Both the position numbers and the translations under genes were made by a program. Below are positions 662-19,241 of a DNA stretch of 32,133 nt, in pieces. The stretch comes from Brevinematales bacterium (lineage in GTDB: Bacteria; Spirochaetota; Brevinematia; Brevinematales; GWF1-51-8). Location of the stretch: the NCBI GenBank assembly GCA_013177895.1, contig JABLXV010000043.1, positions 1-32,133 on the forward strand, given 5' to 3'. Position 1 is the first letter of the stretch, and each line of letters begins with the position of its first letter. Under the pieces are notes generated by a model. The model was not told where the DNA came from. It worked only from the letters and a program-made list of their open reading frames with translations, and made no database searches.

Positions 662-1127
662 CATACTTTCTTTCCCGCGGGGGAAAGAAAGTATGCAAAG
701 AAAGCCCGCCCCTCCTGAATGCCGCTTCAGAGAAGAAAAACGCAAAACGTGAAACGCCGTAACTTCTCCCTACGTTCGTCGAACAACGGCGTTTCTTTTC
801 CGCTTCGCGGAAAATCCGTTTTGCTAGGAAAAAGCGCGGCACAAAGTCGGGGGGAATAAAAAATGCAGAAGACAAAACAGCCGGGGAATGAAAGAATTTT
901 TTTATTCCTGTCTTTGTTTTGGCTGTTCTGTATTTACCCCCGCGTTTTTGAGCGCTTTTACTTCCCGCGATAACGAAAAAGGGCGTTTGTTCGAGCTTGT
1001 TTCTCTCTCGTTTTTAACAGGGTTTGAAAGCGAGTTACGCCCGACTCGTTATCGCGGGCTCTTCTTAATAAGCGAAATCGCGCGGGGAAACTCTTTCTTT
1101 GATACTTTCTGGGTTCGCAGAAAGTAT
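662..1127. repeat. Structured intergenic repeat, element 1
   Basis: A gene-free 466-bp stretch built almost entirely of inverted repeats. The left terminal hairpin is at 662-695 (CATACTTTCTTTCCC pairs perfectly with its complement) and is followed by CAAAGAAAGCCCGC. The right terminal hairpin at 1102-1127 (ATACTTTCTG/CAGAAAGTAT, loop GGTTCG) has the same CAAAGAAA flank when read on the other strand, so the ends are inverted copies. Inside are a three-way junction (742-749/817-824; 751-760/786-795; 796-803/807-814), stem 830-837/952-959 enclosing 872-882/921-931, and stem 964-976/1046-1058 (13 perfect pairs) enclosing 981-986/1037-1042. ORFs on either strand inside it follow the stems and have no recognisable protein features. 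The same architecture recurs at 13848-14446. Bases 1128-1205 hold nothing I can assign. Confidence 0.8.
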
Positions 1128-12298: not shown

Positions 12299-13027
12299 CC
12301 CGTTAAACAGGCGGTGGGCGAGCTGGATGGGGAGTCCCGCCTTCTTGATTTGTTCGGCGGTACGGTCGATATCGTACTCGAAACGGTAGAAACTGACGGC
12401 GAGGGTTTCGGTGTCCATGACGCAGAACGATCCGCGCGGATCGCCGTCACGGGGCTGGCCGATACTCCCGGGATTGATGATATAGCACTGTTCCGGTTCG
12501 AGACGGAGTTCCGTCCCGGGGGTGTAATGCTTCACCCCGGCGTCGTCGAACACCCCGGGGACATGGGTATGCCCGACTATCGCGCGCTTGAGCTCGAGTT
12601 TTTTCAGCACACGGATACCCCGTAACGCCGAATCGCGGGTGAAAATATATTCGTCGGGGCTCTCCGGCGAGCCGTGGATCAGGTAGATGGACGGGTCGAG
12701 CATGAGATGCTCCGGGAGACGCGAGATATAATCGATTTCCTCCGGGCGCATATTCCGCCCGACCCATTCGATAGCCTCGACCGCGAGATAGGAAGCCTCC
12801 CTGCGGGATTCCATATTCAGGAGCATTCTTTCATGGTTGCCGCTGATAATGATATCGGTTATGGAACGGATGAGTCTCAGGCATCGCGACGGTTCGGGGC
12901 CGTATCCTACGATATCCCCCGCGCAGATAATTTTCCCTAAGTTCAGGCCTTGTTTCCTGTAGAACTCGAAAAAGGCGTCCAACGCGGCGAGATTTCCGTG
13001 GATATCGCTGATGACGGTATAAATCAA
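12293..13027 (-). CDS. Metallophosphoesterase (calcineurin-like, YfcE-type)
   Basis: A 244-residue calcineurin-like phosphoesterase. All metal-ligand motifs are present in order: SDIHGN (7-12), GDIVGYGP, GNHE, an HGSP segment and GHTHVP. The small cap-less size fits the YfcE-like group, which hydrolyses phosphodiesters or phosphomonoesters in vitro; the natural substrate is unknown. I place the start at TTG 13027-13025, because AAGGAG lies 7 bases upstream and the resulting MIYTVISDIHGN is the usual N-terminus of the family. The TTGA overlaps the stop of the upstream PHP gene, so the two are translationally coupled. It ends inside the palindrome that precedes the kinase promoter. Confidence 0.87.
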   Translation of the reverse strand: MIYTVISDIHGNLAALDAFFEFYRKQGLNLGKIICAGDIVGYGPEPSRCLRLIRSITDIIISGNHERMLLNMESRREASYLAVEAIEWVGRNMRPEEIDYISRLPEHLMLDPSIYLIHGSPESPDEYIFTRDSALRGIRVLKKLELKRAIVGHTHVPGVFDDAGVKHYTPGTELRLEPEQCYIINPGSIGQPRDGDPRGSFCVMDTETLAVSFYRFEYDIDRTAEQIKKAGLPIQLAHRLFNGI

Positions 13028-13650
13028 ACAGTGCTCCTTTCGCCGGCCTTCACCGCCGTATATTGCCCGGATTTTAACGCGAGTATCAAACCGCGCGTAT
13101 CTATTATCGGAAACTCCGTATCGAATACTGTATAATATTTAGCGACCATTTGAATTGAATGAGCGTCGCTGCCGCCGGTGACGGGAAGACCCAGTTCCAT
13201 TGCAAGTTCCGCCGCCCGGCGGTTCTGCTCGTCCGAACAGTTGCCGTTCATCCCCTCAAGCGCCGCGAAGCACCCCGCGTACTCCGCCGCCGTATCCCCC
13301 AGCGAGAATGCGCCGGTACGGAACGGGTGCGCGGGTATCAGCGCTCCGCCGCGTTTCTTCGCGAGCGCGCAGAGTTCCGCCACGGGTATGCCCTGCAGCC
13401 CCTCGTCCTCCACCCCGAACGCGAGGATATCCCCCGATGCGCTGGCGATTTCCTGCCCGGCGATAACCGTGAACCCCATCTCCGCGCCGATAGTTACCGC
13501 GCGGCGGGCGCCGTACATGGTGTTATGCTCGGTTACGCAGATCGCGTCAAGCCCCGCTTCTTTCGAGAGGCGTATGAGGTCGCGCACGTCCAGCACGCTG
13601 CATTGCGAGGATAATGTGGTGTGATTGTGCAAATCGATTTTATATTTCAT
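13024..13650 (-). CDS. PHP-domain metal-dependent phosphoesterase
   Basis: A 208-residue stand-alone PHP domain. The metal-binding motifs are all visible: DLHNHTTLSS (6-15), the TEHN block, the GQEI block, PAHPF and GGSDAH. Related small PHP proteins hydrolyse phosphate esters such as nucleotide derivatives (for example 3',5'-bisphosphates by the YciV/RnaAM group), but this short form cannot be assigned to a substrate from sequence alone. The ATG at 13650 has only a weak ribosome-binding site. The downstream metallophosphoesterase starts within its stop codon, so two different metal-dependent phosphoesterases are made together. The gap upstream contains a hairpin repeat and element 2, with no obvious strong promoter. 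Confidence 0.87.
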   Translation of the reverse strand: MKYKIDLHNHTTLSSQCSVLDVRDLIRLSKEAGLDAICVTEHNTMYGARRAVTIGAEMGFTVIAGQEIASASGDILAFGVEDEGLQGIPVAELCALAKKRGGALIPAHPFRTGAFSLGDTAAEYAGCFAALEGMNGNCSDEQNRRAAELAMELGLPVTGGSDAHSIQMVAKYYTVFDTEFPIIDTRGLILALKSGQYTAVKAGERSTV

Positions 13651-13727: not shown

Positions 13728-13776
13728 ATGGTCGCTTCTAAATATCGCCGTACTCCGGCGTCAAGGAAGCGACCAT
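13728..13776. repeat. Small nested hairpin repeat, copy A
   Basis: Outer stem ATGGTCGCTTC (13728-13738) pairs perfectly with GAAGCGACCAT (13766-13776). An inner stem CGCCG/CGGCG (13746-13750 / 13756-13760) closes a small loop. It is followed by TGGGCG. A second copy in opposite orientation lies at 19172-19241: the outer stem is the same but the inner stem is different. It lies between the divergent PHP and glnE genes. Confidence 0.75.
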
Positions 13777-13847
13777 TGGGCGAGATAAATGGGTAATGGA
13801 GTATTGGGTGGTTCTAAAAACCCATTGGAGTCATATAAAAAAGACTT

Positions 13848-14446
13848 CTTCATTTCTTTCTGAACGGCCAGAAAGAAATGAAGCAAAGAACCCCGCATAA
13901 GAATGCGGGACAAGCGAGCCGCCGCACAGATAAAGCTTAGGAGAAGAGCCGGAAAATCCCGTAAAGGCTTAACTCGCAAGAATGCCCAAATAAAAGCGCA
14001 GGATTACCATGCTCGGACAAGCGCCTTTTCGGGATTTCCCGGTAGCAGGAATCGCTTTACAGTGCGCGGTATGCTGCGCACGCTAACCACGGGCTTGTTG
14101 GGGGTACCTGCAGAGAAACATAGCCCGTGTTGGTTGCGACTCGCAGGACGCGAGAAGTGTTGTCGAGAGCCGCGGATGGCGGAGACGGCGTTTGTACCCC
14201 GCCGCTATGCCGCGACTTTTGCTGAGCGAAACGGGTTATAACGCCGTTGTTCGAGCGAGACCTGTTTTCACTTATTGAGGAGCTTGAAGCGAGTTACGAC
14301 GTTTCCCGTTTCGCGCCCCTGTGCTACAAAGCGGTATCCGGCGGGGAACCTCGCTTGTCCCGCGTTCCCCGCGGGATTCTTTCGTTCTTTCTTTCTGGGT
14401 TCGCAGCCTGTCCCCGAAGGACTTGCCGGAGGGGGAAAGAAAGAAC
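13848..14446. repeat. Structured intergenic repeat, element 2
   Basis: A 599-bp relative of the element at 662-1127, filling most of the gene-free stretch 13651-14555. The left terminal hairpin is 13848-13862/13869-13883 (CTTCATTTCTTTCTG, 15 perfect pairs), followed by CAAAGAACCCCGC. The right terminal hairpin is 14384-14395/14435-14446 (GTTCTTTCTTTC, 12 pairs), whose loop contains the CTGGGTTCGCAG also found in element 1. Inside are stem 13949-13968/14023-14042 (18 of 20 pairs), 14088-14095/14122-14129 (8 pairs), 14226-14235/14305-14314 (10 pairs) and 14342-14349/14364-14371. Reading frames of about 75-112 codons here have no recognisable features and track the stems. Bases 14447-14555 hold only a weak possible promoter (TTGTTC at 14491, TACATT at 14513) for glnE. 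Confidence 0.8.
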
Positions 14447-14555
14447 AGGTGAATTTGGTATCTTTGGGAGAGTTATTAGAATTCCCCCTATTGTTCAGGT
14501 AATAATAATCGATACATTACTATATCGCCCTAATATCTGATTGAGGAAGGCGCGC

Positions 14556-19094: not shown

Positions 19095-19171
19095 CATATC
19101 AAATAAGGGCGGTTCCAAAAACTATTGATATTTATAGCAATAGTATTTATAATTCTTAATAAACACGCCCA

Positions 19172-19241
19172 ATGGTCGCTTCCTTGTCCTCTTTTCCTTA
19201 GGCACCTTAATGGTGAAAAGAGGATTATTAGAAGTGACCAT
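19172..19241. repeat. Small nested hairpin repeat, copy B
   Basis: ATGGTCGCTTC (19172-19182) pairs with GAAGTGACCAT (19231-19241), ten pairs plus one G-T. The inner stem CCTCTTTTC/GAAAAGAGG (19188-19196/19215-19223) is perfect, and an innermost CACC/GGTG closes the loop. The outer stem matches copy A at 13728-13776 in reverse orientation. It lies between two convergent genes, so it may stop transcription from both sides, although there is no clear T-tract. Confidence 0.75.

Follow-up and report, generated by a model that had tools for sequence, protein, structure and literature searches.

Integron attC sites function as folded single-stranded hairpins, and d(GCGNAGC) and d(CGNAG) are ultra-stable mini-hairpins, a physical DNA motif. 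Among dispersed repeats of bacteria, REP/REPIN doublets are associated with RAYTs and consist of units of 20–40 bp with a GTAG or CGTC tag, while MITEs are usually 70–300 bp in size (PMC3733652). In the current work, we analyzed two repeats, element 1 (662–1127) and element 2 (13806–14488), in a 32,133-nucleotide stretch of DNA (the window) from Brevinematales. Element 2 shares with bacterial IS5-mobilized MITEs the inverted repeats of a resident IS5-family element, a 4-bp target duplication, the lack of a transposase gene and the occurrence of empty sites. Unlike those MITEs, its cargo consists of head-to-head hairpin modules that are not IS-derived and that also occur without IS ends. At 683 bp it is also larger than the usual MITE, although it agrees with the remaining MITE features that were tested. 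Judged from their sequences, the two repeats can be regarded as members of a dispersed, hairpin-rich family in an uncultured spirochaete, and element 2 as a MITE-like, non-autonomous IS5-type transposon. The explanation that we favor as a whole, and consider probable, is that of an IS5-type non-autonomous transposon carrying a structured hairpin pair that is recognized as folded DNA.

Element 2 sits between divergent genes, one encoding a PHP domain (13024–13650, minus strand) and the other glnE (start at about 14555). The initial annotation correctly recognized an element here, but its span of 13848–14446 was too short; the true extent is 13806–14488. The left copy of the target-site duplication, TATT (13802–13805, no strand), corresponds to the single TATT at the empty site of a sister species, Spirochaetes bacterium GWF1_49_6 (G002, locus L437). 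It is followed by the left terminal inverted repeat GGGTGGTTCTAAAAACCC (13806–13823, plus strand), which matches the genome-wide end GGNRGTTCTAAAAACYC, and by the left terminal hairpin CTTCATTTCTTTCTG/CAGAAAGAAATGAAG and then CAAAG (13848–13883, minus strand; DNA fold z = -7.0). The left, or minus, domain (13922–14069, minus strand) includes a basal stem, CCGCACAGATAAAGC/GCTTTACAGTGCGCGG, that is folded in the same way by another copy (L006). Within it lies the left hairpin (13949–14042, minus strand) with the reversed tip boxes TTAACTCGC (13969–13977) and GCTCGGACAA (14011–14020). A central spacer (14070–14199, no strand), about 120 bp longer than that of most copies, separates this domain from the right, or plus, hairpin (14226–14314, plus strand), whose tip boxes are TTGTTCGAGC (14247–14256) and GCGAGTTACG (14289–14298). 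The right terminal hairpin GTTCTTTCTTTCTG...AAAGAAAGAAC (14384–14446, plus strand) holds an optional insert in its loop. The right terminal inverted repeat (14470–14488, minus strand) was located by the genome-wide end search, and the right TATT (14489–14492, no strand) by comparison with the G002 empty site. Two open frames inside 13903–14540 had no Pfam match, indicating that element 2 is without a transposase gene. Elsewhere in the window, a short second element of about 131 bp with the same end type (19107–19239) contains CGCCCAATGGTCGCTTCCTTG. A small hairpin, GGTCGCTTC...GAAGCGACCATTGGGCG (13728–13782), is present also at the G002 empty site, has an inverted copy at 19166–19186 and is likely the remnant of a further repeat.

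The inverted repeats that bound element 2 are 16–18 bp long, and their type was counted 110 times in the genome vs. 2 for a reversed control. Repeats of this end type also bound a gene for a 342-aa transposase in the same genome (L061), which belongs to the IS5 family (IS5_4 at 271 bits, cut-off 140, with a match to DDE_Tnp_1 as well). A single copy of the intact IS5-family transposase was found; no intact copy was found in Brevinematales bacterium DeMMO6_14 (G001) or in G003, though both hold copies with IS5-type ends, a point that counts against the transposon explanation. In the IS5-family element at L061, about 128 bp that take in its right end are duplicated in tandem (1510–1654). Several shorter elements, about 109–262 bp, carry the same ends as element 2, and other doublet copies measure about 500–680 bp. 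Elements of this kind are flanked by 4-bp repeats (TTAA, TTAT, TTGA, TATA, and TATT) that look like target duplications. At the glnE locus, TATT stands on either side of 13806–14488 in the window, whereas G002 has a single TATT in an intergenic region that can otherwise be aligned, and element 2 is absent from this locus in G001 and G003 too. The duplication, the single-TATT site and the absences together show that element 2 is a fairly recent insertion of the transposon type.

Element 1 has no terminal inverted repeats within 330 bp and thus lacks the ends of an IS5-type MITE. It is an older copy, as it is present at the same place in G001. It comprises a left terminal hairpin (662–695, minus strand) with CAAAGAAAG after it (696–704), a minus domain (751–795, minus strand), a plus domain (964–1058, plus strand), and CTCTTTCTTTG with the right terminal hairpin (1091–1127, plus strand). 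The stem of the minus domain, GAAACGCCG/CGGCGTTTC, reads GAAATGCCG/CGGCATTTC in the G001 ortholog, a compensated change, and two stem pairs of the plus domain are broken in G001.

A BLAST search with the element returned 71 pieces in the window's genome and many in each of the three further genomes from this genus (Brevinematales, Spirochaetota), and no piece of comparable length outside the genus (41 genomes searched by BLAST); copies were gathered by targeted searches, and copy counts are lower bounds. Adjacent domains on opposite strands were head to head in 34 of 34 pairs from the four genomes of the genus, extending to the whole set the order of minus before plus domain that had been noted for elements 1 and 2. 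Among the 27 pairs with enough flank, 13 had IS5-type ends on both sides, four on one side and 10, including element 1, on neither. Since the hairpin pair exists also without IS5-type ends, the transposon may have captured a pre-existing unit. The module unit is about 220 nt long, and the stems of minus and plus domains form different families with no simple drift series. When open frames were checked, seven of 20 doublets lay mostly within a stop-free stretch of at least 120 codons, a mixed result, and 14 others had too little flank. The pattern matches L082–L086 (five of seven in genome contigs) are without flanking stems, look like chance and were set aside.

The four stem-loops of the initial annotation agree with the sequence in coordinates, boxes and pair counts. 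Compared with dinucleotide shuffles, RNA folding gave z-scores of -1.6 (741–805), -6.3 (964–1058), -3.3 (13949–14042), and -2.4 (14226–14314), so the first hairpin is weak and unremarkable by itself. Searched singly, box 1 and box 2 were mildly enriched within the window. The case for the hairpins rests instead on the family, that is, on the 71 pieces, the other genomes of the genus and 101 collected domains, always in minus-plus order. The boxes had been described as two conserved loop motifs; their sequences were right, but they are two sides of one hairpin tip, TGTYYGA...GAGTT, which adjoins the stem and is often closed by a GNA triloop. Read on one strand, the left boxes and the right boxes are reverse complements, so the loops could have been conserved through mutual pairing, either as kissing loops or as one long inverted repeat. 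This is very improbable, for at the variable fourth base the two halves matched in 11 cases, were discordant (T/C) in 21 and involved G in two, and left boxes do not covary with right ones.

Covariation in the stems, suspected at first from the two elements, was tested on 101 homologous domains that were collected by flank homology with no pairing filter, anchored at the tip and placed on a tree. By Fitch parsimony, which is approximate and can misplace changes on short, recombining repeats, the eight pairs of the inner stem underwent 22 compensated double changes and one broken one. When these changes were reassigned at random among the columns of the stem, 3.2 ± 1.7 were compensated (maximum of nine in 400), and sliding the register by 1–3 gave 0–2 over six pairs vs. 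22 in the true register. The covariation is therefore real. Block replacement is not the main source, since a single pair was altered on 15 of the 18 branches with compensated events. The further step of the initial annotation, from changed stems with kept pairing to selection on structure, is not established, and neither is selection on RNA, as palindrome-correcting mutation could yield the same pattern. Single changes broke pairing in 19 cases and kept it in 10 (of 29), near the 28 and 18 (of 46) of the null. Random decay of the stems had been named as an observation against structural selection, and in two pairs of orthologous copies the changes were indeed mostly uncompensated, with 34 single changes that broke a pair (11 and 23), 13 that kept one and eight doubles that kept pairing (four and four).

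One reading of these hairpins is that they act as RNA, be it a structured non-coding RNA or a signal for RNA processing, and that their pairs are maintained by selection on the RNA fold. The stable folds, the true covariation and the intergenic position of the window copies would suit such a role. We nevertheless regard it as unlikely, because single-step outcomes were nine G-T and nine A-C, with G-T in 13 of 808 cells, so that the covariation bears no RNA-specific signature; moreover, Rfam 15 yielded no match at its curated threshold, and resident orthologous copies lose pairs. A second reading, which we hold to be possible, dispenses entirely with selection on the fold. Template switching during replication corrects quasi-palindromes and would create symmetric, compensated changes by itself. 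It is consistent with events that mostly alter one pair, terminal branches included, with pair breakage by single changes close to the null proportion, and with the right terminal hairpin of element 1, both arms of which are 4 bp shorter than in the G001 ortholog. It leaves unexplained the conserved tip, where box 2 changes per site about 13 times more slowly than the outer region, as well as the fixed head-to-head order and the recurrence of this tip in other phyla, where the stems that bear it are unrelated.

The tip is indeed encountered beyond the genus. Short tips within it are closed by C-GNA-G (CCGTAGG, CCGAAGG, and GCGAAGC), and this closure, seen also in other phyla, is shared with the d(GCGNAGC) and d(CGNAG) mini-hairpins; the literature that we found on this physical motif concerns aptamers and similar uses, and it is not known as a part of a mobile element. 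A 19-nt form of the tip, TGTTTGAGCGNAGCGAGTT, occurs in IMG/VR contigs and within the phylum to which a Rhodothermales MAG belongs, and the exact tip was found in 16 of 398 genomes from the phylum of a Rhodobacteraceae genome, where a reversed control had no matches. Loci outside the genus, plus L196, provided 68 distinct sites for the 19-nt tip, 42 of them on stems of at least 7 bp, among which at least 34 distinct stems were counted. The tip was followed by (C/T)TTTG and a C/T-rich hairpin at 26 of the 42 stemmed sites vs. four of 25 stemless sites, and an oppositely oriented module lay upstream of six of the 42, consistent with doublets. Variovorax paradoxus has the tip with the terminal hairpin, and Caballeronia sp. 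NK8 and Ilyobacter polytropus are further examples of the module, with a terminal hairpin. In Pasteurella multocida (NZ_CP020346.1, about 244490–244890; L454), a head-to-head doublet with a diverged tip lies between a DUF484 gene and dapF, at a site with no annotated feature. In several viral contigs (L264, L294, L305, L317, and similar ones), a stemless 19-nt tip stands beside GCGCCAG and an ACCCCCG...CGGGGGT hairpin, a context that differs from that of the modules. BLAST searches of phages and plasmids with Pasteurellaceae and viral modules found nothing, and motif-string searches of open-access papers turned up no relevant description, although subscription journals may hold a description.

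Extragenic hairpins set as inverted doublets recall REPINs, and a Y1 gene adjoins modules in one genome (G241), which raises the possibility that the element is of the REP/REPIN type and is mobilized by a RAYT transposase (Y1, PF01797). This proposal is largely refuted and, in our judgment, extremely improbable. The unit of the present family is far above 20–40 bp, no constant GTAG tag was seen by eye in the copies inspected, and PF01797 had no match in the window's genome (G000), G001, G002, or G632, the last of which contains 25 exact tips. For the Y1 gene of G241, the best reading is an IS200 insertion into a module: at L379 (900–2600), a gene of the IS200 type with an internal stop apparently lies inside a module, and two more modules are nearby. 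The 25 tips of G632, from the Rhodobacteraceae phylum set, form a burst in a genome with no Y1 transposase match. Integron attC sites offer another likeness, as two attC-like hairpins have exactly TGTTTGAGCGAAGCGAGTT for their tip, one with RYYYAAC/GTTRRRY boxes (L403) and one with a partial match (L404). The R''/R' boxes (RYYYAAC, GTTRRRY) occur in none of the 101 Brevinematales domains, and membership among attC sites was rejected.

Returning to the transposon with a folded cargo, we propose that the IS5-family transposase moves element 2 in trans, a step suggested by the anatomy seen in the sequence. The cargo would consist of two head-to-head modules, each an irregular hairpin with the tip TGTYYGA...GAGTT, a CTTTG link and a C/T-rich terminal hairpin, which an IS5-type transposon may have captured as a structured unit already in existence. 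The hairpin pair is probably a separate structured unit that is recognized as folded DNA. It may work or multiply as a folded DNA strand, in the form of a hairpin or cruciform, with a putative factor recognizing the tip and the terminal hairpin. Such a mode would account for stems that vary and yet stay self-complementary, and mutation that corrects palindromes may contribute to the matching of the arms. More speculatively, it is possible that the module represents a pan-bacterial mobile element, as yet unnamed, that spreads in a way of its own and is recognized by its folded-DNA shape and tip and not by the sequence of its stem, and that IS5-type ends captured it in Brevinematales. The module would then be defined as a long irregular hairpin with the tip YTGTTTGA-GCGNAGC-GAGTT, followed by CTTTG and a C/T-rich terminal hairpin, and often arranged in head-to-head doublets. 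If these sequences belong to a single family that spans Spirochaetota, Pseudomonadota, Fusobacteriota, and a Bacteroidota-like group, then a common, unannotated component of bacterial intergenic regions was missed. It would also represent a natural system in which the shape of a hairpin and its tip are conserved and the sequence of its stem is not, and it would open to testing the general question of whether selection or palindrome-correcting mutation lies behind covariation in DNA palindromes.
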